A stretch of DNA of 64,000 nt from assembly GCA_900316795.1 (NCBI GenBank), contig ONEF01000004.1:169245-233244 (forward strand), given 5' to 3'. This document shows positions 1,530 through 63,010 of this stretch, one piece after another. Source of the DNA: an uncultured Bacteroidales bacterium (GTDB lineage Bacteria > Bacteroidota > Bacteroidia > Bacteroidales > UBA932). The position numbers were made by a program, and so were the translations under genes. Under the pieces are notes generated by a model that worked only from the letters and a program-made list of their open reading frames with translations, searched no databases and was not told the DNA's origin. How positions within the stretch are numbered: position 1 is the first letter of the stretch; every line of letters starts with the position of its first letter.

Positions 1530-1982
1530 CTATGAAATCTCTATTGTGCGGCTAAGGTCGGGGTTGGTGGTGATGGAAACTTTGATGCAGTCTTCAGGGA
1601 GTATCTCAGCGATTTTTTCAGGCCATTCGATAAGGCAGAGGCCGCTTCCTGAGAAGTAGTCTTCCGTGCCGATGTCGTAGGCTTCCTGGAGGCGGTTGAT
1701 GCGGTAGAAGTCAAAGTGGTAGATCGGGAAACCCTTTGCGCTTTTGTATTCGTTGATGATGGTGAAGGTCGGGCTGTTGACGTTGTCCTGTACGCCCAGG
1801 GCCTTGCAGATGGCTTTGATGAAGGTGGTTTTGCCGGCACCCATCTTGCCGTAGAAAGCGAAGATGTTGCTCTGGAGGTCAGACTCTGAGATGTACCGTA
1901 TGAATTCCTCAGCGACCTTGTCTATCTCTTCAAGGCTGCCGACAGTGAAAGTCTTCAGTATTGTGCTTCTTCCGTTTTCCAT
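1530..1982 (-). CDS. tsaE: tRNA threonylcarbamoyladenosine biosynthesis ATPase TsaE
   Basis: A 150-aa protein of normal length for the family. It has a Walker A motif GKMGAGKTT at residues 45-53, followed by the TsaE-typical SPTFTIINEY stretch and the HFDFYR motif near residue 95. TsaE is the ATPase partner of TsaB and TsaD in making t6A37 on ANN-decoding tRNAs in the cytoplasm. It is the last gene of a minus-strand run, 12 bp after the small upstream gene. The window also holds tsaC (5687-6289), which supplies threonylcarbamoyl-AMP to the same pathway. Confidence 0.95.
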   Translation of the reverse strand: MENGRSTILKTFTVGSLEEIDKVAEEFIRYISESDLQSNIFAFYGKMGAGKTTFIKAICKALGVQDNVNSPTFTIINEYKSAKGFPIYHFDFYRINRLQEAYDIGTEDYFSGSGLCLIEWPEKIAEILPEDCIKVSITTNPDLSRTIEIS

Positions 1983-1994
1983 TGCAAACTTCTT

Positions 1995-2240
1995 CTATTC
2001 AACATCTTCTGCCTTAAGGACGTGGAGTTGTCCGTCTGTGTCTTTGGCAACCCAATCGCCCTCGTTGCACTGGCTGATGCCGTCTTCAGTGGCGATGAAA
2101 AGATAGAGGAACCCCATGCAGAGATGAGGTTCCATCAGCTTTTCTCCGGCCATCTCTCTTATCTCAGCGATGTTCATTCCGTCCCATCTCACGGCGTCTG
2201 ACATTTTGCCGCCAATCATTATCATCTTCTTCATCTGCAC
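1995..2240 (-). CDS. Small conserved-looking protein, 81 aa
   Basis: A soluble 81-residue protein between the acyltransferase and tsaE, spaced 44 and 12 bp from them, so probably co-transcribed. The C-terminal half has EGDWVAKDTDGQLHVLKAEDV, which resembles the GDW(I/V)xK..GE short domain seen in many phage and bacterial small proteins (inference from memory). Internal Met codons at positions 3, 5, 6 and 8 make the start uncertain. No function assigned. Confidence 0.7.
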   Translation of the reverse strand: MQMKKMIMIGGKMSDAVRWDGMNIAEIREMAGEKLMEPHLCMGFLYLFIATEDGISQCNEGDWVAKDTDGQLHVLKAEDVE

Positions 2241-2284
2241 ATCTCCTTGCCAATCGTCTTTTCCTCGGATGTTTACCCGGGTTG

Positions 2285-3547
2285 CTATAGCTTGATGACT
2301 ATCTTCTTGCGGTAGAGGGCGTAAGCCATAAGGGTGAAGACAATCACATAGACGATGGCGTACATCAGGGAAGCGAACTCATTGTTTCCGTTGTTGCCGC
2401 CGAAAAAGTCAGAGCGGAAGATAGGGCAGCAGCAATTCTGGTAGAACCAGCTGAGTACTGAGTAGGTCTTTTCGCCCATTGTCCCGTCGTCCTGGACCAT
2501 AGGGACGGTCCACTTGATCATTCCTCCCAGAATCTTGGAGAACAGGCCGGCCATAACAAAGGCGAACAGAGGGTTCATTCCAAGAGCCTTGAACGGAGTG
2601 AAGATCTTTTCCTTTCCCTTGACATCTATGAAGTATGCGAAGAAGCCCAGCATCAGTATTGCCCATCCGCCGGCGTACAAAACGTATGAGCCGGTCCAGA
2701 TTTTCTTTACTATCGGGAGCCAGATGCTGAATATCATACCCAGAGCAAGGCAGATCATCCCGATGACGAACAGTTTGGCTACGGCATTGATTTTATGTTC
2801 CTCTGTGCGGCAGATATTGCCTATGAGGAATCCCAGCAGAACGGTGCAGCTTCCGCTGAGGACTCCGATAAGGCCTTCAGGGTCAAAGTCAAATCCCTCT
2901 CCGTGGTAAACGTGGTTGGAACCGTTGAGGCCAAGTGCATTGAAGAAGCTCACGTCAAAGGCTCCAGAAGCCCTTCCTGCCATAGTGTCCTTAACTGTCT
3001 CGCCGAAGAGGAAGGCGCCTTGGCCATCGCGAAGGAGCCAGAGAACCAGCACTTCCAGAAGAGCCAGCACAACCATTGCGCTGATGATTTTCTTAGGTTT
3101 CTTGAGCCAGAGGGCAAACAGTCCGCCGACAATGTAGCACATGGCAATTCTCTGCAGCACTCCGAATATCCTCAGATGCCTGAACTTCTCCGCCACATTC
3201 CACCAGAAGCCGTGGTCAGGATCCATAGGGAGCTTGATGAACGGAAAGGCGTTGAGGGCAAGTCCTACCAGGAAAATCAGAGCGCCCCTTATCAGAAGCT
3301 TCTTGACGCTTGCCTTGGAAAGACTTTCTCCGTACTTGGCAAAAGAGAATGCCATTGCCGCTCCAACCACAAACAGGAAGAACGGGAAGACAAGGTCCGT
3401 AGGAGTGCAGCCGGCCCAGGCGGCGTGCCTCAATGGTTTGAATATATGCCCCCAGCTGCCGGGGTTGTTTACCAGAATCATACCCGCCACGGTCATTCCC
3501 CTGAGAACATCCAGGGCTACATAACGGGTGGTCTTTACTTGTGCCAT
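2285..3547 (-). CDS. Multi-pass membrane acyltransferase, NagX/HGSNAT-like (DUF5009 type)
   Basis: An integral membrane protein of about 420 aa with roughly ten hydrophobic segments. The N-terminus reads RYVALDVLRGMTVAGMILVN, the signature of the family that includes heparan-alpha-glucosaminide N-acetyltransferase and bacterial NagX. It probably transfers acyl groups to amino sugars at the inner membrane; the substrate is not known. The start at 3547 (MAQVKTT) puts the first residue just before the conserved RYxxLDxLRG motif. An upstream ATG at 3583 would add 12 unconserved residues. First gene of the run leading to tsaE. Confidence 0.85.
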   Translation of the reverse strand: MAQVKTTRYVALDVLRGMTVAGMILVNNPGSWGHIFKPLRHAAWAGCTPTDLVFPFFLFVVGAAMAFSFAKYGESLSKASVKKLLIRGALIFLVGLALNAFPFIKLPMDPDHGFWWNVAEKFRHLRIFGVLQRIAMCYIVGGLFALWLKKPKKIISAMVVLALLEVLVLWLLRDGQGAFLFGETVKDTMAGRASGAFDVSFFNALGLNGSNHVYHGEGFDFDPEGLIGVLSGSCTVLLGFLIGNICRTEEHKINAVAKLFVIGMICLALGMIFSIWLPIVKKIWTGSYVLYAGGWAILMLGFFAYFIDVKGKEKIFTPFKALGMNPLFAFVMAGLFSKILGGMIKWTVPMVQDDGTMGEKTYSVLSWFYQNCCCPIFRSDFFGGNNGNNEFASLMYAIVYVIVFTLMAYALYRKKIVIKL

Positions 3548-3776
3548 ATTAAAACTCTTTTTAATTGCCAAACTATAGGGCACACAAAAATAACTAAAAT
3601 CTCATAAGCATTAACCCCGTTTTTAGCAAATCGCTGAGAATGTGGAAGATAATATTTTGAGGGGTGTTGCTAAACCATACCCTTCAAAATAGTAAGTGTT
3701 TAAGATACAGGTGTTTGTTAAAAACGGATGTTATTTGGGAACAGATTGTTATTTTTGTATTGCAATAATTATCGCG

Positions 3777-5673: not shown

Positions 5674-5686
5674 CGAGTATTGGCTT

Positions 5687-6296: not shown

Positions 6297-7430
6297 TTAG
6301 TTGATGGTTGTTCCGGTATCTGAGTGAGAGTCTCCTGGTGCAAACTCAGCGATTACCGGGTAATGGTCTGAAAAATTGCACTTTATGGTTTTGTGGCTTA
6401 ATGCCGTGCTGTTTTTTGGAATGAAGATGTAGTCTATTCTCAGCAGGGGCCACGCCATGGAATAAGTGGCTGAAAAACCATGGCCCGCTTCTTTGAAAGT
6501 ATCCAAACTGCCGTAAGACAGTTTGTGGTAAGTATAGGACATCGGGGTATCGTTGAAGTCTCCGCAAATTACAGCAGGATAGGGACTTTTCTGTATATGG
6601 CCGAGCACTTCGGCTACTTGTCCGGACCTTTTGATCCCGGTATTGCGGAGCTTGGTATGGACACTGATTATTTCTTCCGCCACATCTTCAGAATTTTTTC
6701 TTTTTTCCCTTATCTTTTTGATCAGGGCCGTGGGGGAGATTGCGTAAGATTCCAGATGGTTGTTGTAGAATCTGAGCGTGTCATTTTTTATCACGATGTC
6801 CGCAAACAGGGAGAGGTTGGTGCTGGACTTGAAAGTCAGTACGCCTCCGTTTGCTATAGGGTATTTGCTGAGGATGATGTTTCCGCTCCTTTTGCCGTTG
6901 GTGTGCTTTATCAGGTGATATGTCCTGTAGCGGTAACCCGGAAAAATACTTTTTGCCTGACCGGTACTGTCCAGATAGGCTTCCTGAAGGCAGATGATGT
7001 CTGCGTCTGTACTGCCAAGATGTCTGGAAATGCTGTCTATGGTGGCGGTAGCGGACAGTCCGCCGGAAGACAGGCGGAATTTGCCCACATTGTAAGTTTC
7101 TATTTTTATGGGGTTTGAACCTGATGCTGTTTCTTCTGAACTCTTGAACTTGAAAAACCTTTCGGCAAAAAGCAAAGCCGGAAGGATGGCAATCAGCGGT
7201 ATCCAGACACTTTTGCTGCGGCCCAGGAGAGCTATCATAAACAGAATGATGTTGATGGCAAGTATCGGGATGAAATACAACCCGAAAAACAAAGGTGCAG
7301 AAAACCTGGACGGGTCTATATATGAAGAAATATATGACAGGAAAAGGCACAGGGCGGCAACTGTCAGGACAAATCTGAATGTTATCCCGAACAGTAGCGG
7401 AATCCTTCTTTTTTTCCTTGAAGCTGTCAT
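6297..7430 (-). CDS. Membrane-anchored endonuclease/exonuclease/phosphatase (EEP) family protein
   Basis: A 377-aa protein with two or three N-terminal membrane segments (about residues 10-95), then an EEP catalytic domain. Visible motifs are ETYNVGKF, DIICLQEAYL (catalytic Glu), NNHLES, VICGDFND and SDHYPVIAEF (Asp-His pair). Substrates of these bacterial proteins can be nucleic acids or phospholipids and cannot be read from sequence. It follows rhomboid by 41 bp and precedes tsaC by 7 bp in one operon. Confidence 0.88.
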   Translation of the reverse strand: MTASRKKRRIPLLFGITFRFVLTVAALCLFLSYISSYIDPSRFSAPLFFGLYFIPILAINIILFMIALLGRSKSVWIPLIAILPALLFAERFFKFKSSEETASGSNPIKIETYNVGKFRLSSGGLSATATIDSISRHLGSTDADIICLQEAYLDSTGQAKSIFPGYRYRTYHLIKHTNGKRSGNIILSKYPIANGGVLTFKSSTNLSLFADIVIKNDTLRFYNNHLESYAISPTALIKKIREKRKNSEDVAEEIISVHTKLRNTGIKRSGQVAEVLGHIQKSPYPAVICGDFNDTPMSYTYHKLSYGSLDTFKEAGHGFSATYSMAWPLLRIDYIFIPKNSTALSHKTIKCNFSDHYPVIAEFAPGDSHSDTGTTIN

Positions 7431-8080: not shown

Positions 8081-9840
8081 AACATTCTTTGTTTGATTTC
8101 GTCGGCGGTTATCCTGAAGAAGGTGTATCCCCCGTTGGGAGCTGTCGCCGGAGTGTTGCACAAAAAGAGCTGGTCTATTACGTTCTGGGCTTCACGCTCG
8201 GATATCACTGCCGTGTAGGAGAAGTTTGAGTGTCTTACCAGGTCTTCCGCCGCCTTCCGGAACAACTCTTCCTGGTTTCCTTCTTCTATGTAGGCCGCAA
8301 TTTCCTCCATAGTTTCTTCTACTGAGAACTTTTCTCCCTTGAAGTCTGCCGGAGTGCCGCTTACCACTATGCAGTCTTTGCCGAACTGACGGATTTCAAA
8401 GCCCAGGGAGCGGACTTTGTCCACATTGTCCATAAGGGTGGCAAAGGAAGAGTGGTCCAGTGTAACCGTCTTCGGGAAAAGCTCTTCCTGAATCTGGCAC
8501 CGGTGGTTCTGGAGAGAGTGCAGGTATCGTTCGTAGAAAATCCGCTGGCGTGCTCTGGCTATATTTACAACCAGCAGACCTCCCTTGCCGTCAGAAACAA
8601 GAACGATGTTCTTGTCTATCTGGACGATACGCCTTTCCTGAGGCTCTTCCTCCAGATTTGAGTTGATGGAGCTGGGAACAGTTTTGTAGCCTGGTGTTTC
8701 TTCAAACGGATTGAAGAGAGGATTGTAGTCTATCTTGGGAGGTTTGAACCCGCCGCGCTGCATGATTAACTTCTCTTCCGGGGTTAGGGTGAATCCGTCT
8801 CCTGTACTTATTTCCGGAGGCACGCCTTCAGTGTCAAAATCTATTGAAGGAGCAAAGGCGTTTTTGCCAATGGCTTCCTTTACGGCGGCCTCAATAATCT
8901 GGAAGATAACCTGTTCGTTTTCCAGTTTTATCTCAGTCTTTGAGGGGCTTATGTTCACGTCCAGTTCATTGGCCGGGACTTCAAGGAAAATGAAGTAATG
9001 AGGAGTGTTTCCCTCCGGGATAAGGTTTCCGTAACCTTTCAGCACAGCCTTGTGAAGCATCGGGCTCCTGAAATATCTGCCGTTTGCAAAGAGAAAGGTG
9101 TTCTGCTGGGTTTTCTTGGCACTTTGCGGCGTTCCGATTATGCCGTAAACTTTTACTACAGTGGTTTCTACAGAAAGGTCTATCAGCTGCTTTCCAATCG
9201 CTGAGCCAAAAAGGTCAGTGAGCCTCTGCTTGAGGTTTCTTCCCCTTGGCAGGGTTATGACTTCCTTGGAGTTTGAGATGAGGCGGAATTCTATATCCAG
9301 CCTGGTCAGGGCCACGCGGGTGAACTCAGACACTATCATCCGGTATTCGCTGCTGTCAGACTTGAGGAATTTCCTTCTTGCAGGTATGTTGAAGAACAGG
9401 TTGCGGACAGCTATGTTACAACCTTCCGGGCAGGCTATTTCAGTGGTTTCAAGAACTTTGCCGCCAGATATATGTACTTCAGCACCGGTTTCCAGTCCTC
9501 TCTTGCGGGTCTTGAGAGTCACGTCTGCACAGGCGGCTATTGAAGCCAGAGCCTCTCCACGGAATCCGAAAGTTGACAGATTCTGGAGGTCTTCCACACT
9601 GTCTATCTTGGATGTTGCGTGTGAGAGGAAACAAAGCCCTGCCTCTTCCGAAGTCATTCCGCAGCCGTTGTCAATAACCTGGATGAGTGTTTTCCCGTAG
9701 TCAGACACCACCAGCATGATGGAAGTGGCTCCGGCGTCCGCGGAGTTCTCCATCAGTTCCTTGACAACAGAAGCCGGTCTCTGGATAACTTCTCCGGCGG
9801 CAATCAGGCTGTAAATATGTTCAGGTAAAACTTTTAACAT
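8077..9840 (-). CDS. mutL: DNA mismatch repair protein MutL, C-terminal endonuclease motifs degenerate
   Basis: A 587-aa protein. The N-terminal GHKL ATPase is intact: ELMEN (28-32), DAGAT, DNGCGM, and TFGFRGEALASI. The C-terminal dimerisation domain is present, but the DQHA(X)2E(X)4E metal site reads NIARARQRIFYE (about residues 426-437), and the late CPHGRP-like motif reads APNGGYTF. The nicking activity known from B. subtilis-type MutL is therefore probably absent. Heads an operon with the rhomboid, EEP and tsaC genes. Confidence 0.96.
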   Translation of the reverse strand: MLKVLPEHIYSLIAAGEVIQRPASVVKELMENSADAGATSIMLVVSDYGKTLIQVIDNGCGMTSEEAGLCFLSHATSKIDSVEDLQNLSTFGFRGEALASIAACADVTLKTRKRGLETGAEVHISGGKVLETTEIACPEGCNIAVRNLFFNIPARRKFLKSDSSEYRMIVSEFTRVALTRLDIEFRLISNSKEVITLPRGRNLKQRLTDLFGSAIGKQLIDLSVETTVVKVYGIIGTPQSAKKTQQNTFLFANGRYFRSPMLHKAVLKGYGNLIPEGNTPHYFIFLEVPANELDVNISPSKTEIKLENEQVIFQIIEAAVKEAIGKNAFAPSIDFDTEGVPPEISTGDGFTLTPEEKLIMQRGGFKPPKIDYNPLFNPFEETPGYKTVPSSINSNLEEEPQERRIVQIDKNIVLVSDGKGGLLVVNIARARQRIFYERYLHSLQNHRCQIQEELFPKTVTLDHSSFATLMDNVDKVRSLGFEIRQFGKDCIVVSGTPADFKGEKFSVEETMEEIAAYIEEGNQEELFRKAAEDLVRHSNFSYTAVISEREAQNVIDQLFLCNTPATAPNGGYTFFRITADEIKQRML

Positions 9841-11213: not shown

Positions 11214-11633
11214 TCAGTTGAGGCTGAAGAAGAAGTACAGGCCGGCCCAGTTTTTCGGGATGCCTCTGGCGGAACCTATCTGGGAGCCATATTTGTCTCG
11301 GATAGTGCCGTCGTTGTCCACTTTGCCGATCTGGCTTCCGTACTTGTCGCGTACCACTCCGTCTGAATTGACTTTTCCAACCTGGCTGCCATATTTGTCC
11401 CTGATGGCGCCGTCGGAGTCTATCTTCCCTATCTGGGAGCCGTACTTGTCCCGTACTGTGCCGTCATTGTTTATCTTGCCAGTCTGTGAGCCGTATTTGT
11501 CCCGGATGGTGCCGTCGCTCTGGATGGATCCTATCTGGCTTCCGTACTTGTCGCGGATCGTCTGGGCATCTGCCTTTGAAGGCAGGGCCAGCAGAATTAT
11601 CGCTGAGGCCAAAAGTGCAATAATCTTTTTCAT
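11214..11633 (-). CDS. Secreted 5-fold beta-flower repeat protein
   Basis: A 139-aa protein with a Sec signal peptide (residues 1-24, ending ADA-Q). It is followed by six 17-residue repeats of the form IRDKYGSQIGKIxxDGT, then an aromatic tail (GLYFFFSLN). The layout matches the small Bacteroidota proteins named 5-fold beta-flower, each repeat giving one blade. Exported; biochemical role unknown. The underlying DNA is a 51-bp tandem repeat. Convergent with the tRNA unit and preceded by the SGNH hydrolase on the same strand. Confidence 0.88.
   Translation of the reverse strand: MKKIIALLASAIILLALPSKADAQTIRDKYGSQIGSIQSDGTIRDKYGSQTGKINNDGTVRDKYGSQIGKIDSDGAIRDKYGSQVGKVNSDGVVRDKYGSQIGKVDNDGTIRDKYGSQIGSARGIPKNWAGLYFFFSLN
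11250..11560 (-). repeat. 51-bp tandem repeat in the beta-flower gene
   Basis: About six imperfect 51-bp units encode the 17-residue repeats. The units diverge at many third positions, so they are older than the rsmE minisatellite, while RDKYGSQ is kept in every one. Confidence 0.9.
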
Positions 11634-13249: not shown

Positions 13250-14617
13250 ATGGATGGAGAAAGACAAGGACGGTTTCTGGGAGTGATGGACTGCAACAAC
13301 TTCTTTGTCTCCTGCGAGAGGGTGTTTGACCCGTCTCTGGAGGGGAGGCCGGTTGTGGTGCTTTCCAACAACGATGGCTGTGCCGTATCCAGAAGCCAGG
13401 AAGCCAAGGCTTTGGGTATAAAGATGGGAATGCCGGCATTCAAGATTGAGGAGGAGTTCCTGAGGAACGGGGTGGATGTTGCGATGTGCTCTTCCAACTA
13501 TACGCTTTACGGAGACATGAGCCGCCGAGCAATGGATATTCTGAGGGATGTAGCCGGGAATGTGGATGTATATTCTATAGATGAGGCGTTTGTGGATTTC
13601 GGTTCAATGGCGCCGGAAGATGTGGTTTCTCTGGGGAGTGAGATAGTTTCCCGGGTGACCAAGGGGACGGGCATCCCGGTATCTGTGGGATGCGCTCATT
13701 CAAAGACACTTGCAAAGGCTGCTACAAGGTTTGCAAAGAAGTTCAAGGGATATAGGGGATTCTGCCTGATAGACTCAGAGGAGCAGCGGCGGAAGGCTAT
13801 TTCGTTGCTGCCGCTGGAGGATGTCTGGGGCATAGGCTACCGCTCTGTCAAAAAGTTCTCGGCGATGGGGATTCTGACGGCGGCGGACTTTGTGGAGAAG
13901 GGGCCTTACTGGATAAAGCAGAGGATGGGGGTGTGCGGCCTGAGAACATACGAGGAGCTTATGGGGAGGGATGTCATCCGCCTGGACCACAGGCAGCTCA
14001 AGCAGACCATCACCACCAGCCGCAGCTTCGGTGAACTTGTATCTGACATCGGGCAGCTTAAGACTGCGGTATCTAACTTTGCGTCTTCCTGCGCCCGGAA
14101 ACTCAGGGCCCAGAACAGTTCCGCCTTGTATGCTACAGTGTTCCTTATGACCAGTTTTTTCAGGGAAGACCTTCCGCAGTACTACAATCGTGCGGTGGTG
14201 GAATTTCCGGAGGCTGAGGACAGCTCCATAGGTCTGGTGGAAGGCTGCCTGGAGGCTTTGGAGAAAGTGTATCGGCCCGGGTATGCCTACAAGAAAGCCG
14301 GAGTTACGGTAAGCGGGATAGTTCCCGACGGCCACATCCAGCAAAACCTTTACTATCAGCCTGATTATGAGCGCAACCGGAAGATAGACCTCCTGATGGA
14401 TGAAGTCAACCGCCGCTACGGGCGCAGCACGCTTCACTTGGCCGTACAGGGAGAAAGTGCCGTCTTCAACCGCAGAGTCAGAAAACCGGCCGGAGTGTTG
14501 CAAGGCAAAACATCTTCGGGCATCGCTGAGCGGAAGGAAAAATGGGAAATGAGGTGCGAGCACCTTTCCAGAAACTATACCACAGATCTGAATGATGTTA
14601 TAACAGTCTGTTGCTGA
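13250..14617 (+). CDS. umuC: UmuC, Y-family translesion DNA polymerase
   Basis: A 455-aa protein with the Y-family catalytic blocks [33 protein letters not shown] and [12 protein letters not shown], then the helix-hairpin-helix and little-finger regions. It is the catalytic subunit of Pol V and copies past damaged bases with low fidelity. An alternative start at MDCNNFF (residue 14) would remove 13 weakly conserved residues. Convergent with the M3 peptidase gene, 23 bp away. Confidence 0.95.
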
Positions 14618-14640: not shown

Positions 14641-16713
14641 TTATCTCATTCCACAACGCTTAAGCAGAGCGTCTGGTTTGGGATCTCGGCCGCGGAAGTT
14701 GCGGTAGAGTACGGCGGCGTCTTCCAGATTGCCTTTTTCCAGGATGTTTTCCCTGAAGCTCCTGGCGGTATTCCTGTCAAAGATGCCGTTCTTCTTGAAG
14801 AGCGAGAAGGCGTCTGCCTCAAGCACTTCGGCCCATTTGTAGGAGTAATAGCCGGCAGCGTATCCGCCGGAGAAGATGTGGGTGAAACTTGGGCAGAAAG
14901 CACAGCCTTTGGCGTTAGGCAGGAGCCTGCATTTCTCTTTCAGGCGGTTTTCCAGTTTTTCAAGATCGGCCGGAGTTTTTATCTCATCGATTTTCTCCTT
15001 TGACATTGTGTGCAGAGCCATGTCGGTAATGCCGAAAGCCAGCTGGCGTACAAAGGCGTAGCCGCTGTTGTAGTTTCTGGCACGCTTGATCTTGGAAATA
15101 AGCTCTTTGCCTATGACCTTGTTTGTCTTGTAATGCCTTCCGGCCATCTTGAGGAATTCTTCTTCAACCGCCCAGTTTTCCATAATCTGGGACGGGAGTT
15201 CAACAAAGTCCCGTGTTACGGATGTGCCTGTCAAGGACGGATATTTTCCCTTGCCCATTATGCCGTGCAGAGCGTGCCCGAATTCGTGGAGAACGGTTGT
15301 CACCTCGCTGAAGGTCAAAAGAGACGGTTTGGTAGGAGTGGGCTTGGTGAAGTTGCAGACGATGGAAATCAGGGGCCTTTCTTCAGGTATGCCGCCACTG
15401 TCCCGGAAGGATGTCATCCAGGCTCCGCCCCTTTTGCTCTTTCTTGGGAAGAAGTCGCTGTAGAAAAGGGCCAGATGACTTCCGTCCTCATCAAGCACGT
15501 CGTAAACTTTCACGTCTTTGTGGTAAGCTGGAATGTCCTTGGCTTCCACAAAACGGATTCCATAGAGGCGGTTTGCAAGGAGGAAAAGGCTCTGCTGGAC
15601 ATTCTCGAGCTTGAAGAAAGGTTTGACCATATCATCGCTGAGACTGTATCGGCTCTGGCGGAGTTTTTCACTCCAGTAGGCAAAATCCCAGCCTTGGAGA
15701 GTGCCCGGAGTGCCGTCTTCTTCCTTGAAACCATGTTTGCGGGCAAATTCCTCAATTCTCTTCACTTCCTTTTTACCGTAAGGAAGAGTCTTGTCCAGAA
15801 GGTTCTTGAGAAAAGAGTTCACGGTCTTGGTATTCTTTGCCATCCTGTATTTCAGTGCTGCCTGCGCCGGGTTCTTGAACCCCAGGAGGTTGGCCGAATC
15901 CATTCTCAGTTCCAGTATCCTTCTTGTTATGGCCGTATTGTCATATTTCCCTCCAAGGCAACGGGAGCCGTAGGCAAAGTACATCTTTTTCCTCAGTTCC
16001 CTTTTCGGAGAGAATTTCATGAAAGCTGAATAGCTTGGAGCCTGGAGGGTGAACACCCATCCCTTGAGTTTCCTTTCCTTGGCTTCCTGGGCAGCTGCTT
16101 CAACCACATAATCAGGCAGATCAGTTATGTCCTCCTTGTCAGTCAGGTGAAGGATGAAATCATTGGTGGCATCCAGCACGTTTTTCCCGAACTTCAAGCT
16201 CAGGAGACTGGCCTCTTCAGAGATTTTGGCAAGGTGCCTTTTCCCTTCCTCGTCCAACAGGGCTCCGTTTTCCTTGAAGGATAGGAACTTCTTCTCAAGA
16301 AGCCTTGCCTGCTCCTTGTCGAGATGGAGTCTCCTCCTGTTCTCATAGACAAATTTTATCCTTTGGAAAAGCTTGTCGTTGAACAATATATGGAGAGAAA
16401 GCTTGGTAAGTTCAGGAGATATTTCCTCAGCGATGCTCTGCATTTTGTCTGAGGAGAGGCACTCGTTGAGGTTGAAGAAGATGCCGCTTACCTCATCCAG
16501 GGCCTTGCCGGAAAACTCCAGAGCCTCCACCGTATTCTGGAATGTAGGTTCCTCTTTGTTCTCTGCGATAGCGGCTACTTCATTGTAGGCCTGCTTGATG
16601 GCTTCTTTGAAAGCCGGCAGATAATCATCTTCTTTGATCTTGTCAAACTGCGGTGCCCCGTACCTTAGATTTGAGGCACGGAGAAGGATATTCTGTTTCA
16701 TCTTATGATTCAA
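14641..16713 (-). CDS. dcp: M3-family zinc metallopeptidase, peptidyl-dipeptidase Dcp type
   Basis: 690 aa, the usual length for Dcp/oligopeptidase A. The zinc motif is HEFGHALHG, followed by the distal Glu in SQIMENWAVE. The N-terminal helical region is typical (PAFKEAI..AYNEVAAIA). There is no signal peptide, so probably cytoplasmic, though Dcp-type enzymes vary. It degrades short peptides. The gene symbol is by family only. Confidence 0.9.
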   Translation of the reverse strand: MNHKMKQNILLRASNLRYGAPQFDKIKEDDYLPAFKEAIKQAYNEVAAIAENKEEPTFQNTVEALEFSGKALDEVSGIFFNLNECLSSDKMQSIAEEISPELTKLSLHILFNDKLFQRIKFVYENRRRLHLDKEQARLLEKKFLSFKENGALLDEEGKRHLAKISEEASLLSLKFGKNVLDATNDFILHLTDKEDITDLPDYVVEAAAQEAKERKLKGWVFTLQAPSYSAFMKFSPKRELRKKMYFAYGSRCLGGKYDNTAITRRILELRMDSANLLGFKNPAQAALKYRMAKNTKTVNSFLKNLLDKTLPYGKKEVKRIEEFARKHGFKEEDGTPGTLQGWDFAYWSEKLRQSRYSLSDDMVKPFFKLENVQQSLFLLANRLYGIRFVEAKDIPAYHKDVKVYDVLDEDGSHLALFYSDFFPRKSKRGGAWMTSFRDSGGIPEERPLISIVCNFTKPTPTKPSLLTFSEVTTVLHEFGHALHGIMGKGKYPSLTGTSVTRDFVELPSQIMENWAVEEEFLKMAGRHYKTNKVIGKELISKIKRARNYNSGYAFVRQLAFGITDMALHTMSKEKIDEIKTPADLEKLENRLKEKCRLLPNAKGCAFCPSFTHIFSGGYAAGYYSYKWAEVLEADAFSLFKKNGIFDRNTARSFRENILEKGNLEDAAVLYRNFRGRDPKPDALLKRCGMR

Positions 16714-18695: not shown

Positions 18696-20243
18696 ATGAG
18701 TTCAGATATAAAAAGGGAATTTTATCTCTACAATACTCTTTCCAGAAGGAAGGAAAGGCTTGAAACAATAACCCCTGGCAGAGTGGGCCTGTATGTTTGC
18801 GGTCCTACTGTTTACGGAGACCCTCATCTTGGCCACGCGAGGCCGGGTGTGACTTTTGATGTTCTTGTGCGCCTGCTGAGGAATATCGGATACAAAGTCC
18901 GTTATGTGCGCAACATAACTGATGTTGGACATCTGGAGCACGATGCAGACGAGGGAGAAGACAAGATAGCAAAGAAAGCACGCTTGGAGCAGCTTGAGCC
19001 AATGGAGGTTGCGCAGACTTATACCGTGCATTTCCGCCAGGCTATGGCAAAGCTTAACGTGCTTCCGCCAAGCATTGAACCGAATGCTTCAGGCCACATC
19101 ATAGAGCAGATAGAGTTCATCAAGAAGATACTGGATAACGGCTATGCCTACATAAGCAACGGTTCAGTGTATTTTGATGTGCAGAAATATGCCCAAAACC
19201 ATAACTATGGAGCTCTTAGCGGCCGTAACCTGGATGAGATGCTCCACAACACAAGAGAGCTTGACGGGCAGCAGGACAAACATTCTTCAGCTGACTTTGC
19301 CCTCTGGAAAAAGGCAAGCCCTGAGCATATCATGCGCTGGCCATCCCCTTGGGGAGACGGTTTCCCGGGTTGGCACATGGAGTGCTCCGCTATGGGAGAG
19401 AAATACCTTGGCAAGGAGTTCGACATCCACGGCGGAGGAATGGACCTGATGTTCCCTCACCACGAGTGTGAGATGGCCCAGAACTTTGCGGAAAGAGGTT
19501 CCGGCGGGGTAAAATATTGGATGCACAACAACCTGATTACCATAGAGGGCCGCAAGATGGGCAAGTCTCTTGGCAACTTCATCACCCTTGACGAGCTTTT
19601 CAACGGTACCAATCCTAACCTTGAGCAGGCCTATACTCCTATGACGGTGCGCTTCTTCATCCTTCAGGCCCATTATCGCGGAACGCTGGATTTCTCCAAC
19701 TCCGCATTGCAGGCTGCCGAAAAGGGGCTCAAGCGCCTTATGCAGGCAATAAAGGATGCCTCGTCTCTCAAAACTTCCGAGGGCGCAGAAGTGCAGTCAT
19801 CCGTCAACGACTCTAAAGTTCCTGCTTCCGGCATCGCTGAGGAAATCAGCAAGATACGTGAAGACATCTTCACCGCCCTCTGCGACGATATGAACACTCC
19901 TGTGGCGTTGTCATACATCTACGAGCTTGTAAAGATCGTGAACAATGCCAAAGAGGGCAGGATCGTCTTGACAAAAGCGGAAAAGGATGCAGTAACCGCT
20001 CTGTTCAAGGAGGTTGTAACGGATATTCTCGGCCTCATAGATGAAGATTCAGCCCAGTCGGCAGACGGCCGGTCCAACTCATCAAAGGTTATAGACGGCC
20101 TGATGAACTACATCATTGAAGACCGCAAGACCGCCCGTGCCAACAAAGACTGGGGAAAAAGCGACCAGATCCGTGATACTCTCAAAGCCCTCGGCATCCA
20201 GCTCAAGGACAACAAAGACGGCATCACCACCTGGGAACTGTAG
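18696..20243 (+). CDS. cysS: Cysteine--tRNA ligase
   Basis: 515 aa. Class I signatures: [16 protein letters not shown] (HIGH-like, zinc Cys) and KMGKSLGN (KMSKS). The zinc-binding residues in [12 protein letters not shown] and HHECEMAQ are also present. Charges tRNA-Cys. Slightly longer than E. coli CysS because of an insertion around residues 360-380. Convergent with the deaminase gene, sharing a hairpin terminator. Confidence 0.97.
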
Positions 20244-44244: not shown

Positions 44245-44336
44245 CGAGGATGCAAAGATACTATAATTTCAATCTGCTCAGCGATAAGGGAAGCGTGATA
44301 ATGCAGGAGGGTCCAGGGCAAATAACAGAAGGCTGA

Positions 44337-47565: not shown

Positions 47566-50112
47566 ATGAAGTGTTATTTTAGAATTTCAGTCATTGCAGC
47601 CATCGCAGCAGTTTTCTGTGGCAACACAATGTCTGCTCAGGAAAAACTTGAAGAAAGGTTCAAGGCTTTTTCCCAGCTTCTCTCACCAGAAAAGCTCTAT
47701 CTCCAGACGGATAGGGAGACCTATTGTGTGGGAGATACAATTTGGTTCAAAGGTTATCTTGTGAACAATTCAATGGCATCCGAGTTTCCGGAGAGCAATT
47801 ATATCTATGTGGAGCTCCTGGATTACTACTATGCCAAGAACGTTTATTCCAACAAAATTGAGGAGACCCACCGTACGGTCCAGAGAGTCAAGGTAAAAAG
47901 ACGTGACGGAGTTCTTCAGGGCTATGTGGTTCTGGACAGTGACATGAACACAGGAAGTGCAATTCTCAGGGCATATCCTTATTGGGCGCTGAACTTCCCG
48001 GCAGACTATATCTTCAGCAAGGTTATTACGGTTATAAATCCTATCAAAGACAGTTTCGTGAAGGAACTTATTGACAAGAAAGTAGATAACACTGAAGAAT
48101 ATACCAAGATTGGAGTTCTCAATCCGTTCAAGAAAGAGAAGACCCAGAAAAAAGATGTTGACTGCCAGTTCCTGCCGGAGAGCGGACGCTACTTTGAAGG
48201 AAGGAAGGCCGTAATAGGCGTAAAGTGTGTGGATGATACCGGATTCGGAATATACACTGAAGGGGAGATTCTTGATGACAACAATACTAAAGTTGCTGAA
48301 TTCAAGACAAATGCTCTTGGAATGGGTAAATTTGTATTCACGCCTTATCCAGGCAGAAAATACTATGCCAGGATCAAAGACAGCCGCGATGTGGAGAAGA
48401 GGGTTGACCTGCCGGCGGTAGAGAGTACCGGTGCTTGCATCAATCTTTCTTTCCAGGGAGACAACATAATCGCTGAGCTCTATTCTACGGCAGACCTGAA
48501 CAAGGATTCCCTGTTCTTCATACTGTCAGACGGCACTGAAGTTTTCTACAGCAAAGCTCTTTCTTCAGCGATGAAACTTGCCCTGCCGATTGACAAGCTT
48601 CAGCATGGGGTGAATGTGGCAACCATCGCGGACAACAGCGGAAATATTTTTGCCAAGAGACCTTTCTTCATACTTCCGGTTTCAGAAGGAGGAGTTTCCA
48701 TGAAAGCAGACAAGAGCGTTTACGGACAGAGAGATCCGGTGACCTGCACCATCACTCTTCCTCGTCCTGTTTCCGGAGACTTTTCAGTTTCTGTCACCGA
48801 TGACAGCCACGCTCCATACATAGGGGCGGAGGACAACATCGTCTCCTACATGCTTCTTTCTTCCGAGCTTAAGGGATATGTAGAAAACCCGCAGAGCTAT
48901 TTTGATGATTCAAAGCCTTTTGCAGAAAGGGAATCTCAAGTGGACCTGCTTATGATGACTCAGGGCTGGCAGTACTATGACCTTTCCAAGATTTTCAAGG
49001 GGCAGTATCAGATGCCGCAGTACGGAAAAGAATATATCCAGACAATCTCCGGAAGGGTAAGGAAATCATCGCTGAGGAGAGGAAACACATCCATAGTTTC
49101 TTTTGTCGCTCCTTCAATCGGTTTTACTGCAATGGGACAGTTGGATTCTTCCGGCTACTTTGAGCTGAAAGACGTCAATTTCCCTGATTCCACCCTATTT
49201 ATCGTTAATGCGGTCAGCCCGGGTGGCAGGAAGTCATTCATACCTTCCATCACTGAGGATTCTTTTGCTCCGCTGGTTGAGTACCAGAGGAGAAAGGAGA
49301 AAATCAACTACTCCGATGAAACTGCCCAGTACATGCTCCAGAACTATTACAATTCAGGCGGAGACAAGGTTTATCAGCTGGATGCAGTGTATATCACCGG
49401 CCAGAGGATGGTAAGGGCCAAGGACAATGTTTCCCCGTTCCCTATGCAGTATTTCAAAGAAGGTCAGCTCAAGACGGAAAAAGACCTCGAACCTTATGCA
49501 TCGTTTGATGTAATGACCTATATCCTTGAAACTTGCACGGGTATCAGAGAAGAACGCGATACGACTACCGGAGAAAGGAAACTGGTTTGCAGGGTGCCGG
49601 CACAAGCCTCCAACTGGGAAGTAAGTGACTATACGGAAATCATCGTTTACGTAAACGGTTTCCAGGCCCCTTCTTCTTCTGAGCTGGACCACTACAACAT
49701 AGACGAACTTGAGGCCTTTGTATTCCTCAGGGGAGCAGATGCGGCTCCGTTCTCACCGATGAGAGGAGGAAGCAGCACCGTGGTTCCTGTCATTATGATA
49801 AAGACCAAGCCAAGTGCAGGCACAGGAATGCCTAAGAATGTGAGCAAGGGCTACCCTCTCGGGTGGCAGAGGCCTAAGCACTTCTATTCTCCGGCTTATG
49901 ACGTGCAGGGAAAATCCATCAGCCGTGCCGGTACGGACAGAAGGTCAACGGTTTACTGGAAGCCTGATGTGAAGATAGAAAACGGTGAGGGCAAGTTCCA
50001 TTTCAACACATCTGATGGTAATTCCAACTACACTGTTGTAATAGAGGGAATTACAAATGACGGAGAATATGTTTTCTCAAAACAGGAAATCTCCAGGAAA
50101 CGTGATTATTGA
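47566..50112 (+). CDS. Large exported protein with MG2-like and TonB plug-like domains
   Basis: 848 aa from MKCYFRISV, signal peptide ending MSAQ. The N-terminal part has SPEKLYLQTDRETYCVGDTI, as in Bacteroidota macroglobulin-type MG2 domains. The middle is beta-rich with Ser-rich repeats. Near residues 610-750 is a plug-like module (LDAVYITGQRM, FDVMTYILETCTGIR, DELEAFVFLRGADAAPF). There is no barrel. Probably a cell-surface protein; such genes are common in Bacteroidota and their function is unclear. Confidence 0.78.
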   Translation: MKCYFRISVIAAIAAVFCGNTMSAQEKLEERFKAFSQLLSPEKLYLQTDRETYCVGDTIWFKGYLVNNSMASEFPESNYIYVELLDYYYAKNVYSNKIEETHRTVQRVKVKRRDGVLQGYVVLDSDMNTGSAILRAYPYWALNFPADYIFSKVITVINPIKDSFVKELIDKKVDNTEEYTKIGVLNPFKKEKTQKKDVDCQFLPESGRYFEGRKAVIGVKCVDDTGFGIYTEGEILDDNNTKVAEFKTNALGMGKFVFTPYPGRKYYARIKDSRDVEKRVDLPAVESTGACINLSFQGDNIIAELYSTADLNKDSLFFILSDGTEVFYSKALSSAMKLALPIDKLQHGVNVATIADNSGNIFAKRPFFILPVSEGGVSMKADKSVYGQRDPVTCTITLPRPVSGDFSVSVTDDSHAPYIGAEDNIVSYMLLSSELKGYVENPQSYFDDSKPFAERESQVDLLMMTQGWQYYDLSKIFKGQYQMPQYGKEYIQTISGRVRKSSLRRGNTSIVSFVAPSIGFTAMGQLDSSGYFELKDVNFPDSTLFIVNAVSPGGRKSFIPSITEDSFAPLVEYQRRKEKINYSDETAQYMLQNYYNSGGDKVYQLDAVYITGQRMVRAKDNVSPFPMQYFKEGQLKTEKDLEPYASFDVMTYILETCTGIREERDTTTGERKLVCRVPAQASNWEVSDYTEIIVYVNGFQAPSSSELDHYNIDELEAFVFLRGADAAPFSPMRGGSSTVVPVIMIKTKPSAGTGMPKNVSKGYPLGWQRPKHFYSPAYDVQGKSISRAGTDRRSTVYWKPDVKIENGEGKFHFNTSDGNSNYTVVIEGITNDGEYVFSKQEISRKRDY

Positions 50113-51972: not shown

Positions 51973-53073
51973 ATGGCATCTTTAGGAATCGCAAGCAAAA
52001 CACTGTTGTTCCCTTACTGGTGCATTCTGGCAATAAGGAACAAACTATACGATAAAGGCATATTCAAGTCTGAAAGCTTTGATATACCGGTTGTGTCTGT
52101 AGGAAACATCTCCGCAGGGGGAACCGGTAAAACCCCTCATACAGAAATGATTGTTCAGGCTTTGAAAAGCCGGTACAGGGTAGCCGTGGTCTCCAGAGGC
52201 TACAAGAGAAAGAGCAAAGGTTTCCGCCTGGTAAAAGCTACTGACGATTTCACCGTCTGTGGGGACGAGCCGCTCCAGATGAAAAAGAAGTTCCCGGATG
52301 TACTTGTAGCCGTATGCAAAGACAGGGGAGAGGCCATCCGCAAACTAAAGGATGAATATGGTGTGAATCTGGTTGTTCTTGACGATGCTTTCCAATACCG
52401 CAAGATCAGGCCTTCCTGCAATGTCCTGCTTGTAAACTACAACCGCACCATTGAAAACGGCAACCTTCTGCCTATAGGGAATCTCCGCGATCTTCCTTCC
52501 CAGACCAAAAGGGCGGATGTGGTGGTTGTTACCAAGTGCCCTGATTTCAGCATCTTTGACGGCAACCAGGATGAGGAGCACGGGATGGAAACCGTCAAAG
52601 AGCAGGAGACAGTCTGGAGGAAAAGTCTCGGATTGAGGGAAGACCAGCCTGTATTCTTTTCCACGGCAGTCCTGCAGCAAGCCCTTCCTGTTTTCCCCGG
52701 CCTCTGCAACAAAAGATACATGTACTCCAAGTTTGCGGTAGCCTTCACCGGTATCGCGGACGATACGCTTTTCCGTTCCCAGCTGGTTTCCACACACAAG
52801 CTTGAGGAGGTACTCAAATTTGCTGACCACAGGAACTTTTCACGCTCGGACATCAGGAAGATTGAAGCCATGGCCCAAAGGCAGAAAGAGGCGGCGGTAA
52901 TAACCACAGAGAAAGACAGCATGAGGCTGAAAACCAACAAATATATCAGCGATGAGCTGAAAGAGAGACTGTTTGCCCTTCCTGTGGGAGCCCGCATCAT
53001 CCCGGAGGGCAAAAGAGAAGAGTTCTTCAAGACCATAACATTTATGAAGAATGACCGCATCGCTGAGCGATAA
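51973..53073 (+). CDS. lpxK: Tetraacyldisaccharide 4'-kinase
   Basis: 366 aa. One N-terminal membrane segment, then VSVGNISAGGTGKTPHTEMI (Walker A), VAVVSRGYKRKSKGF, and VVLDDAFQYRKI (LpxK DDGFQ-like). Phosphorylates lipid A disaccharide at the inner membrane. The last codons RIAER carry a near-palindromic ATCGCTGAGCGAT. Confidence 0.95.
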   Translation: MASLGIASKTLLFPYWCILAIRNKLYDKGIFKSESFDIPVVSVGNISAGGTGKTPHTEMIVQALKSRYRVAVVSRGYKRKSKGFRLVKATDDFTVCGDEPLQMKKKFPDVLVAVCKDRGEAIRKLKDEYGVNLVVLDDAFQYRKIRPSCNVLLVNYNRTIENGNLLPIGNLRDLPSQTKRADVVVVTKCPDFSIFDGNQDEEHGMETVKEQETVWRKSLGLREDQPVFFSTAVLQQALPVFPGLCNKRYMYSKFAVAFTGIADDTLFRSQLVSTHKLEEVLKFADHRNFSRSDIRKIEAMAQRQKEAAVITTEKDSMRLKTNKYISDELKERLFALPVGARIIPEGKREEFFKTITFMKNDRIAER

Positions 53074-57771: not shown

Positions 57772-57782
57772 TCGAAAGGAAT

Positions 57783-59879: not shown

Positions 59880-59885
59880 TAGTTT

Positions 59886-60755: not shown

Positions 60756-60762
60756 AATTTTG

Positions 60763-60800: not shown

Positions 60801-60969
60801 CTTGATTTAGAAATTGTTGGAACTGTCTTAAAAGAGGTTGGTATCTTCCATGATCTTCTTTGAAGGTTTTGGTATGGTATTTGAGAACTCTGTATAAAGA
60901 CAGTTCCATCTGTTTATAAAGTCACATTATTTGAATTTGAAGAATTATTAACTTTAAAACAAATAAGAA

Positions 60970-61476
60970 ATGAAAAGATTTTTGATTCTTGCAGTTGCAC
61001 TGATGGTAGCTCTCCCTACTTTTGCACAGAAACTGTCAAAGGAAGAGAAGGCTGCACAGGCCAAGGCTCTCAACGAGACAGCCATCAAGGCTATCGAGGA
61101 TAACGACTGGGCCATTGTCCCTACTTCTTACATAGACGCTGACGGTGTTGACAACCAGCTCACTGACAACGCCATCTTCATCTCTTTCGAGAAGACTCAG
61201 TTCTTTGCACAGGGAGCAAGAGTTTGCGGAGACGGCCGTACACTGGTAGCCGAGATCAAGGATTTTGACAAGAAGATAGACAAGAAGGGCAACCTCAAGA
61301 TGAGCTTCAACGTGGTTGGAAGATATATCCAGGGAAAGTATCAGGTAACCATGAAGAACAACGGCAATGTTGCCGATGTTATCTTCACCCCGACTTCCGG
61401 CACCGTCCGCAAGTTCCAGGGTCCTATCCTCCCTTCAAAGGCTGCCGGTTTCTACAAGAAATCAAGCCCTATGTAA
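60970..61476 (+). CDS. Exported DUF4251-like protein
   Basis: 168 aa with a signal peptide (LPTFAQ). KEEKAAQAKALNETAIKAIE, then a lipocalin-like beta region ending in GRYIQGKYQVTM and GTVRKFQGPILPSK. The family is Bacteroidota-specific and of unknown function. Single gene with its own terminator. Confidence 0.75.
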   Translation: MKRFLILAVALMVALPTFAQKLSKEEKAAQAKALNETAIKAIEDNDWAIVPTSYIDADGVDNQLTDNAIFISFEKTQFFAQGARVCGDGRTLVAEIKDFDKKIDKKGNLKMSFNVVGRYIQGKYQVTMKNNGNVADVIFTPTSGTVRKFQGPILPSKAAGFYKKSSPM

Positions 61477-61532
61477 AAGTAATTTCCTGAACCACTGAGT
61501 CTTTGAAACAGTATTCAGTCAGGAAATATCAG

Positions 61533-61569
61533 AAAAGAGGTTGACAAAGAGGTCAGCCTCTTTTTTTTT
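61533..61569 (+). terminator. Terminator after the DUF4251-like gene
   Basis: AGAGG-T-TGAC pairs with GTCA-G-CCTCT, then nine T. Confidence 0.88.
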
Positions 61570-61618
61570 CTTACCTTTATAACCCGATCGCTGAAAATAA
61601 TTTTAAAACACGAATATT

Positions 61619-63010
61619 ATGTTTCCAAAGAAAGTTTATCAGACCAGAAGACAAGTTCTGGCAAAGGACATGGAGAGCGGCCTCATTTTGATTCCAGGCA
61701 ATAGCGAGGCTCCGGCCAATTATGCCGACAACTGCTACAAGTTCCGCCAAGACAGCACTTTCCTGTATTTCTTCGGCATCCAGGATCCTGATTTTGCCGG
61801 AGTGATAGATGTGGACAAGAACGAGGAAATCATCTTCGGGAACGATGTCTCAATTGACGACATAATCTGGATGGGACCTCAGAAGAGCGTTGCAGACAAG
61901 GCTGCTGAAGTAGGGGTAAAGAAGACCAAAAAACTCAGCGATCTTTCAAAGTACATAAAGACTGCCGTAAAGGCCGGAAGAAAAATTCACTATATCAACC
62001 CTTACCGCTACCAGGTAAAGCTTATGCTCAGCGATATGCTCGGCGTTCCGGCGGCAGCTCTCAAGAAAGGGGAGTCTGTGAAGCTGATTAAAGCCATTGT
62101 ATCGCAGAGGATAGTGAAGGACAAATATGAGATAGCAGAGATTGACCATGCTTGCGATATTGGCTATGCGATGCACTACTTTGTGATGCAGAACTGCAAA
62201 CCAGGCGTTGCTGAGCAGACCTTGGCAGGAATGATGGACGGGATAGCAATGAGCAACGGAGCCGGTGTTTCCTTTGCCACCATTCTCTCTCAGCACGGAG
62301 AAACGCTCCACAATCACGACCACAGCGGCATTGTTACCAAGGGCAAGCTCCTTACTGTTGATGCTGGAGCCGAGAACAACAATAATTACTGCTCTGACTT
62401 TACCCGCACCATTCCTTGCAGCGGCAAGTTCACCACCAAGCAGAAGGAAATCTACCAGATAGTCTGTGACGCCAACAACCTGGCCCTGGAGTTGGCAAAG
62501 CCTGGCGTGGCTTACTTTGATGTTCACGTTGCTGTTTACAGGTTGTTTGCCGAAAGGCTTAAAGCTCTCGGGCTTATGAAGGGAGACATTGACGAGGCTG
62601 TGGAAGCCGGAGCTCCTGCGCTGTTCATGCCTCACGGCCTGGGCCATAACATGGGCCTGGATGTCCACGACATGGAGAACTACGGAGAAGACTATGTAGG
62701 CTACGGCAGTGCCGCAAAGCGCAGCAAGAAATTCGGCTACGGAAGCCTCCGTATGGCCCGTAAACTGGTGGAAGGCAATGTGATTACAGATGAACCTGGA
62801 ATCTACTTCATCCCTGCCCTCATCGAGAAGTGGAAAAAGGAGAAGATCAACACCCAGTTCATCAACTTCGCCAAGCTGAAAGACTACTACGACTTTGGCG
62901 GAATCCGTCTTGAGGACGATGTCCTGATCACCAAGACAGGCAACCGTCTGCTCGGATCCAAGAGACTTCCTATCACGGTAAAGGAAGTTGAGGCCGCGAT
63001 GAAAGGCTAG
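61619..63010 (+). CDS. pepP: Xaa-Pro aminopeptidase (aminopeptidase P, M24B)
   Basis: 463 aa. N-terminal APP domain (YADNCYKFRQDSTFLYFFGI) and M24 catalytic domain with metal ligands in VDAGAE, SDFTRT, GLGHNMGLDVHD, DEPGIYF and RLEDDV. Removes residues preceding proline from peptides in the cytoplasm. Two in-frame copies of CTCAGCGAT (61934, 62027) encode LSD. Ends with a 4-bp overlap with the convergent Zn-ribbon gene. Confidence 0.95.
   Translation: MFPKKVYQTRRQVLAKDMESGLILIPGNSEAPANYADNCYKFRQDSTFLYFFGIQDPDFAGVIDVDKNEEIIFGNDVSIDDIIWMGPQKSVADKAAEVGVKKTKKLSDLSKYIKTAVKAGRKIHYINPYRYQVKLMLSDMLGVPAAALKKGESVKLIKAIVSQRIVKDKYEIAEIDHACDIGYAMHYFVMQNCKPGVAEQTLAGMMDGIAMSNGAGVSFATILSQHGETLHNHDHSGIVTKGKLLTVDAGAENNNNYCSDFTRTIPCSGKFTTKQKEIYQIVCDANNLALELAKPGVAYFDVHVAVYRLFAERLKALGLMKGDIDEAVEAGAPALFMPHGLGHNMGLDVHDMENYGEDYVGYGSAAKRSKKFGYGSLRMARKLVEGNVITDEPGIYFIPALIEKWKKEKINTQFINFAKLKDYYDFGGIRLEDDVLITKTGNRLLGSKRLPITVKEVEAAMKG

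Follow-up and report, generated by a model that had tools for sequence, protein, structure and literature searches.

A highly repeated nine-base word as a candidate DNA uptake sequence in an uncultured Bacteroidales bacterium and its genus

What is the role of a nine-base word, ATCGCTGAG, that recurs on both strands of a genome fragment from an uncultured Bacteroidales bacterium (UBA932)? The fragment, hereafter the window, is the whole stretch of 64,000 nt that was analysed (contig ONEF01000004.1, positions 169,245-233,244 of the forward strand, assembly GCA_900316795.1). An initial annotation made from the window listed 22 copies of the word, put the chance expectation at about 0.5, and compared the pattern with the DNA uptake words of Pasteurellaceae and Neisseria.

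Abundance and placement of the word

The 22 exact copies (12 plus and 10 minus) lie precisely where the initial annotation had placed them (Table 1), and its estimate of chance agrees with 100 dinucleotide shuffles of the window, which gave a mean of 0.45 and a maximum of 3. Under a third-order Markov model ATCGCTGAG is the top over-represented 9-mer of the window (22 versus 0.48). By our own ORF caller, 11 copies are read in the Ile-Ala-Glu frame, eight fall in three other frame and strand classes, and three lie outside called ORFs; the sites at 3630 and 44277, described originally as intergenic, are among the latter, but the total of two does not stand since the copy at 2163 is outside as well. 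Neither the ribosomal-protein block of the window (L3, L4, L2, S3) nor the SusC/SusD-like pair (54640-59876) contains an exact copy, as had been noted.

Table 1. Exact copies of ATCGCTGAG in the window, with gene context and the state of the same site in compared sequences
Positions	Strand	Context	Compared sequences
1605..1613	-	within ORF 1530-1982, Ile-Ala-Glu frame	
2163..2171	-	outside called ORFs	
3630..3638	+	outside called ORFs	
6345..6353	-		G097 and G184 ATCGCCGAG; G228 differs at four positions
9197..9205	+	antisense in mutL-like gene (MutL domains)	G184 identical; G228 ATCGCGGAG
11599..11607	+		G228, G097, G184, G074 identical
14522..14530	+	gene with impB/mucB/samB-type polymerase (IMS) domain	G184 identical; G228 and G097 ATCGCCGAG
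15634..15642	+	antisense in M3 peptidase gene	G228, G097, G074 GTCGCTGAG; G184 identical
16426..16434	-	in M3 peptidase gene	G228, G097, G184 ATCGCCGAG; word-poor G172 ATTGCAGAA, peptide unchanged
19833..19841	+	in cysS-like gene	
23510..23518	+	antisense in LuxR-type regulator gene	G228 and G184 identical
23634..23642	-	in LuxR-type regulator gene	lost in G228 and G184
24561..24569	+	antisense in LuxR-type regulator gene	G228 and G184 identical
40399..40407	-	in DHquinase/EPSP-synthase fusion gene	
41261..41269	-		
44277..44285	-	outside called ORFs	
48469..48477	+		L051 ATCGCGGAG
49068..49076	+		L047 identical
53059..53067	+		alignment gap in L047, L049, L051
53397..53405	+	in MFS transporter gene	L049 and L051 ATCGCCGAG
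61934..61942	-		altered in L047, L049, L051
62027..62035	-		L049 and L051 identical

The whole genome of this bacterium (G000; 2,321,131 b in 27 contigs) contains 543 copies of ATCGCTGAG (256 forward and 287 reverse), compared with 3 for the word read backwards as a control. This amounts to approximately one copy per 4 kb and is about 30 times the third-order Markov expectation, so that the genome-wide count is not near expectation.

One explanation for the excess is that the word is a by-product of composition or codon usage. Ile-Ala-Glu is indeed the commonest frame, accounting for 42 of the 112 ORF copies in a 464-kb sample of G000, but synonymous shuffling refutes this explanation, with 8.2 copies left of the 112 (maximum of 17 in 100 shuffles). 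For the related word of G003, a complete genome of the genus (dialect B, below), the corresponding values are 98 and 1.95 (maximum of 6 in 100 shuffles). ORF copies in the G000 sample are spread over five frame classes, with further copies outside ORFs, so that they do not derive wholly from Ile-Ala-Glu use, and the word occurs 1 to 18 times in 12 sister species that carry the other word. A by-product of composition or codon usage is thus practically out of the question, in keeping with the earlier view that codon bias is insufficient, and selection on ATCGCTGAG acts at the DNA level and not through codons. Copies outside ORFs make up 19 of 131 in G000 (8.9% noncoding DNA, p 0.03) and 36 of 134 in G003 (9.6% noncoding DNA, p 1e-8), and orientation relative to genes is near even in the two genomes (61/51 and 50/48, respectively).

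A longer signal in two dialects

The nine bases of ATCGCTGAG form the core of a longer signal, ATCGCNGAGnAAAA, and some sister species have a second dialect; the second dialect and the A-rich flank of the signal both go beyond the first description of the word. Among the 39 genomes of the genus set, dialect A (ATCGCNGAGnAAAA) is found in 11 at 168-625 copies and dialect B (CTGTCGNGA(g)nAAAA) in 12 at 125-717 copies, the 717 copies of G003 being 94 times the third-order Markov expectation. The right half of the word is common to both dialects and the left half is different. None of the 39 genomes has both dialects at high number (at least 168 copies of A and at least 125 of B), and several species of the genus have neither word in abundance. 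The dialects follow clades: in a tree of one gene, a peptidase, which places 22 of the 39 genomes (5 of the 11 A and 8 of the 12 B genomes), a single branch with an SH-aLRT of 98 splits the five A from the eight B genomes.

An A-rich flank lies 3' of the core in both dialects and also 5' of the core in dialect B. For copies outside ORFs, and likewise for each frame class represented by more than two copies, the A fraction after the core is 0.37-0.69 versus 0.22-0.33 in controls, although the difference is small in two classes (0.38 versus 0.31 and 0.39 versus 0.30). In each dialect, the position that tolerates most change sits 5 bases 5' of the A-tract, with GA(G) coming after it. Conservation at orthologous positions, a check that the initial annotation had proposed, points to DNA-level constraint that leaves base 6 and partly base 1 free: where a synonymous change was available, position 6 had changed in 24 of 46 cases and position 1 in 12 of 27, similar to the 40% of control third positions, and the remaining positions in 18 of 158, with n inflated as pairs were taken both ways and relatives are non-independent. 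Two findings speak against an uptake role. Between B species, B words were seldom retained at orthologous positions. Recognition would, moreover, not be limited to one word: one-base variants beyond those at the tolerant base are enriched as well, several of them at 3 to 9 times expectation in G000, and CTATCGGGA and CCGTCGGGA at 26 and 17 times expectation, respectively, in G003.

Two further words were considered within the genus. GCATCTGAAC in G061 was rejected as a third dialect, being a local repeat array, and CTATCGCTG in G027 (63 copies, control 0) is at best a weak third word. In other genera, no 9-mer exceeded p ~1e-6.4 in one stretch each from 20 genomes of 19 genera of the family, six of these stretches being shorter than 14 kb and one of the six having a GC of 0.0, apparently masked. 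Weaker words in these genera are possible because the known word missed first rank in some stretches of the same depth (it ranked first in 17 of 20 from G003 and 11 of 20 from G000).

Replication strand, spacing and alternative roles

A Chi-like or segregation role, raised by the initial annotation, would make the word a Chi-type recombination hotspot or a KOPS that is read in one orientation by a translocating enzyme. The density of the word, which we take to be of the same order as that of Chi in E. coli, is compatible with such a role, as is its rarity in two low-GC stretches of G003. Against it, the strand-skew check about ori/ter found no skew in the one complete genome used, G003 (420 of 2,229 kb sampled): 72 copies were leading and 62 lagging (95% interval 45-62%), and moving the turning points at least 50 kb lower gave 68 and 66. 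A Chi or KOPS function is disfavoured because the replication strands are balanced; in addition, gene strands are unbiased, sister clades differ in the left half of the word, and we know of no Chi word with A-rich flanks. We therefore regard this role as very unlikely. The two low-GC stretches, which had 0 and 1 copies and the lowest GC among 21, hold five variant words between them, and one carries TOTE-conflict and RuvC-nuclease-like genes.

It is also conceivable that the word serves a genome-organising factor, for instance as the site of an orphan methylase or a nucleoid protein, in the manner of HIP1 of cyanobacteria, which is likewise a highly iterated short word (PMC4390886). Copies are not clustered beyond random (CV of 0.72 in G003 and 0.94 in G000), as an organiser might have them, and a palindrome, ATCGCGAT, is enriched in G000 (50 versus 2.2 expected). 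However, HIP1 is palindromic and has a link to methylases (PMC4390886), whereas the word here is non-palindromic and has an A-rich flank. An organiser would moreover have to switch its site with the change of dialect inside the genus, and in several species of the genus neither word is abundant, which leaves this explanation improbable, if less so than a Chi or KOPS role.

A candidate uptake route in the Bacteroidales

From the patterns in the DNA, we consider it probable that ATCGCTGAG, as the core of ATCGCNGAGnAAAA, is a DNA uptake sequence that favours own-kind DNA in natural transformation, a reading suggested in the initial annotation and supported by the genome count, codon shuffles, strand balance and orthologous conservation. 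The words of the two dialects are likely to be species tags for taking up environmental DNA. A cell-surface protein, the putative receptor, would bind the signal, and the DNA may then pass the outer membrane by a route that needs no type IV pilus; a predicted protein that combines HhH and barrel regions might be the passage. A ComEA-like protein and ComEC would take the DNA inward, and the word would stay abundant through recombination of the fragments so favoured.

ComEC is present in 38 of the 39 genomes, all 39 have an HHH_3 frame of 191-450 aa that is ComEA-like (by our sorting of HHH_3 matches), and a protein with HhH and a predicted outer-membrane barrel is near universal in the genus. 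A third HHH_3 match in G237 was rejected as the barrel protein, being a DNA ligase by sequence as judged by eye; a profile search found the HhH-barrel protein of this genome at another place. Because all three proteins are found whether a species is rich or poor in the word, no gene tracks the word so far, and their presence was rejected as the word switch. DUF5689, a surface-protein domain from a screen in R. anatipestifer, was rejected as the receptor, as it occurs in 21 of 39 genomes and is missing in 9 of the 12 B-word species. P. gingivalis, which also belongs to the order Bacteroidales, is naturally competent with ComEA and ComEC essential and the outer-membrane step not known; no T2SS or T4SS has been identified in it, and the main text of the study does not use the term 'uptake sequence' (PMC11532111).

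Another possibility is that the word tags DNA for a different transfer route, such as gene transfer agent packaging or vesicle export. Any sequence-biased transfer with recombination would presumably enrich a word on both strands, and on the DNA side such a route fits equally well. However, counterparts of the ComEC and HhH proteins that R. anatipestifer and P. gingivalis need for competence occur here, and we find a route other than uptake hard to favour, giving it as little weight as a Chi or KOPS role.

To our knowledge, uptake words have so far been reported from just two bacterial families, both of another phylum, and both families use type IV pili. The likeness to Pasteurellaceae and Neisseria is confined to the DNA pattern because in none of the 39 genomes did the PF00437 profile for pilus and secretion ATPases (type IV pilus/type II secretion) give a match above cut-off; the comparison drawn originally thus holds for the DNA and fails for the machine. 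Inverted DUS pairs in terminators are common in Neisseriaceae, if not strictly defining, whereas pairs of words less than 100 b apart in any orientation show no surplus here (2 with 4.2 expected and 3 with 4.4 expected). The words here presumably also differ from all DUS words.

As an uptake sequence, the word would resemble the DUS of Neisseriaceae, whose dialects are read by the minor pilin ComP, in being a short word of many copies with dialects that follow clades and have part of the motif in common, but it is unrelated, belongs to Bacteroidota, has an A-rich flank and comes in two strong dialects as opposed to the eight described there (PMC3630211, PMC12616744). With the USS of Pasteurellaceae it shares a 9-base core, AT-rich sequence on one side and two types per family, but the core is unrelated, the A-rich stretch starts 1-2 bases past the core and is not divided into two spaced segments, dialect B is A-rich before the core too, and core copies number 543 in G000 and 717 in G003 compared with 1,465 in H. 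influenzae (PMC12616744, PMC7811141). The USS words listed in PMC12616744 do not include the words found here; the known words and their dialects have CTG or GCGG as inner core, and a bare CTG is present in both words here. Within Bacteroidota, the own DNA of Riemerella columbina outcompetes foreign DNA for transformation, but the candidates in that species are A/T-rich k-mers alone, with their function left open by the authors (PMC7965970). Our literature search found no uptake experiment for species of this genus and, among the matches listed, by titles and abstract starts and with poor coverage of subscription papers and preprints, no uptake sequence reported for Bacteroidales.

It is possible, and we suggest it more tentatively than an uptake role for the word, that Bacteroidota evolved an uptake-sequence system independently of Proteobacteria, with dialects in sibling species, a non-pilin surface receptor and, instead of the type IV pilus, an HhH-barrel protein as the DNA port of the outer membrane. 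If true, this third case, in another phylum, would mean that the uptake-word strategy has evolved again. Since the genus holds two dialects and apparent near-complete losses, comparison across its genomes could expose the receptor and could aid the question of how DNA passes the outer membrane of Bacteroidales. The word would also be of use as a tag on DNA with which rumen bacteria are to be transformed, and its presence in a sequence would mark which bacteria exchange genes with one another.

The nine-base word, its extended motif and a second dialect

All 22 positions that the initial annotation had listed for ATCGCTGAG (the A word) in the window are correct, and its claim that chance would give far fewer copies holds, with a shuffled window yielding 0.45. 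By strength ATCGCTGAG is the top 9-mer of the window, and the 2.32-Mb genome containing it (G000, 27 contigs) carries 543 copies, of which 256 lie on one strand and 287 on the other, versus three of the reversed-word control, in which the same word is spelled backwards. As also claimed, no copy lies in the ribosomal-protein block or the SusC/SusD-like pair of the window.

A different word, CTGTCGGGA (the B word), was detected in stretches of relatives poor in the A word, and in G003, a B-word genome in one contig of 2.229 Mb, it occurs 717 times (371 and 346 by strand). When aligned, 130 A sites (464 kb, the window included) and 134 B sites (420 kb) gave the motifs ATCGC-N-GAG-n-AAAA and CTGTCG-N-GA(g)-n-AAAA, respectively. 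N is the most tolerant base and lies five bases from the A-tract in both. The dialects have the right half in common and differ in the left; A-rich sequence is also found 5' of the core in dialect B. Codon context does not explain the A-tract, since it occurs outside ORFs as well as in every frame class with more than two copies, being weak in two classes. One-base variants in G003 are mostly at background, except for CTATCGGGA (26-fold enriched) and CCGTCGGGA (17-fold), and several in G000 are enriched 3- to 9-fold, the highest being GTCGCTGAG (9-fold) and ATCGCTGAT (7.5-fold).

The window also contains six copies of a palindrome, ATCGCGAT, which is enriched in G000 (50 observed versus 2.2 expected in 464 kb) and hardly so in G003 (4 versus 1.4). 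It may be an A-word variant or a separate palindrome.

Locations of the features discussed
Feature	Location	Description
The window	G000, C15:169245-233244	
ATCGCGAT	The window, 193, 3771, 32411, 33281, 36213, 46044	Palindrome
HhH-barrel protein	L259:4495-6438 (G000:C16)	Aligned with 17 relatives
L037	G003:C1:1166001-1186000	Low-GC; TOTE-conflict domains, 1295-aa RuvC nuclease-like protein, PIF1-type helicase

Constraint on the word and its placement

The alternative that codon bias generates the word had been judged insufficient, and synonymous shuffling within genes bears this out, lowering the count from 112 to 8.2 in G000 and from 98 to 1.95 in G003. The initial annotation had also proposed comparing orthologous positions. 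Among 75 word/ortholog pairs from seven stretches in relatives at 78-80% nucleotide identity (both directions counted; the pairs are not independent), 32 are identical, 28 have one difference and 15 have more. Where a synonymous change was possible, position 6 had changed in 24 of 46 cases and position 1 in 12 of 27, close to control third positions (40% of 73,596), versus 18 of 158 at the other positions. Thus, bases 6 and 1, which are also among those with enriched variants, drift and the remaining bases are held. At one site in the word-poor genome G172, the Ile-Ala-Glu peptide is retained and the DNA reads ATTGCAGAA. The B word is seldom retained at the same position among B species, indicating fast turnover there.

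The copies show no preference for gene strand (61/51 and 50/48), and they are in excess outside ORFs (19/131, p 0.03; 36/134, p 1e-8). Clustering is not above random, and the spacing analysis revealed no excess of closely spaced copies. A check of strand skew, likewise proposed at the outset, placed 72 G003 copies on the leading and 62 on the lagging strand (95% interval 45-62%) with the turns of the sampled GC skew near 0.8 and 1.9-2.0 Mb; setting the turns earlier changes the counts to 68 and 66. The exact word is almost missing from the two G003 stretches lowest in GC (34% and 37% versus 39-44%), which hold three and two variant words; one is L037, and the other encodes a C39-peptidase ABC transporter.

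Distribution of the dialects among relatives

The closest named contigs, judged from one protein (76-85% identity), belong to uncultured Bacteroidales, mostly labelled as rumen, omasum or reticulum or RUG-named, and include RUG11482, RGIG7574, RGIG7951 and UBA3709; the rumen is presumably the habitat of G000 as well. We sampled 39 genomes of the genus and 249 of the family. The A word occurs 168-625 times in 11 of the 39 genus genomes and 1-76 times in the remainder, and 0-53 times in each of 218 family genomes from other genera. Outside the A-word group, it is about 20-fold above Markov expectation in G240 (76 copies; expectation from 40 kb only) and about 6-fold in G172, G246 and G140. CTGTCGGGA occurs 125-717 times in 12 of the 39 genomes. 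A-word genomes have 10-37 copies of CTGTCGGGA, B-word genomes have 1-18 A words, the two lists do not overlap, and 16 genomes belong to neither. In a midpoint-rooted tree built by a quick method from the M3 peptidase gene only, covering 22 of the 39 genomes (5 of 11 A-word and 8 of 12 B-word), a branch with SH-aLRT 98 separates A from B genomes. Two pairs on the B side, G061/G119 (46 and 54 copies) and G243/G027 (3 and 7), seem to have undergone near-complete loss of the B word. CTATCGCTG, with 63 copies in G027 versus none of its reversed-word control, is possibly a weak third dialect.

Other repeated words were encountered among the relatives. Two other uncultured Bacteroidales contigs (L105 and L120) contain GGCCGATAC in both orientations and without an A-tract, with 7 copies over 17 kb and 9 copies over 21 kb; several of the sites are common by descent. 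GCATCTGAAC lies within repeat arrays (unit about 300 b) of G061 stretches and G218 contigs, which alternate in orientation in G218. In G074 (L013, L014 and L015), several overlapping words, CCGATTTCTA and GTTTGATGTA among them, occur in about 16 copies, pointing to a repeat array, possibly CRISPR.

Candidate uptake machinery and overall reading

None of the 39 genus genomes has a PF00437 ATPase (type IV pili or type II secretion) above cut-off, and 31 have weak sub-threshold matches. ComEC is present in 38 of the 39 and HHH_3 in all. Classed by frame length, HHH_3 proteins include a form of about 715 aa, which we take to be Tex, and a ComEA-like protein (191-450 aa; one copy checked, TIGR00426), which all 39 genomes encode. 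The third class is a weakly scoring protein in which an N-terminal HhH precedes a predicted outer-membrane barrel, found in 38 of the 39 genomes with a profile from 18 copies; it gave no match above cut-off in Pfam (two copies) or NCBIfam (three copies). Its AlphaFold2 model (mean pLDDT 77) has BtuB and usher barrels as top Foldseek matches (E ~1e-9, TM ~0.4), which makes the protein, by inference, a candidate for an outer-membrane DNA port. According to published accounts, R. anatipestifer transformation requires ComEC, DprA, ComF, RecA and an HhH protein, together with three others that have no homologue among known transformation components (PMC8459023); P. gingivalis requires ComF, ComEA and ComEC, its outer-membrane step being described as unknown (PMC11532111); and R. 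columbina favours its own DNA (PMC7965970).

The DNA-side pattern matches the defining traits of uptake sequences: the words are in excess on both strands, form dialects that follow clades, combine conserved and variable parts, have an AT-rich flank, are in excess outside ORFs and are scarce in two low-GC stretches. The likeness to Pasteurellaceae and Neisseria uptake words drawn by the initial annotation stands for the DNA pattern, but membership in these two known systems fails since neither their word nor their pilus machine was found here. Accordingly, the A and B words are most aptly described as an uptake-sequence-like system in Bacteroidota, for which we infer uptake itself.
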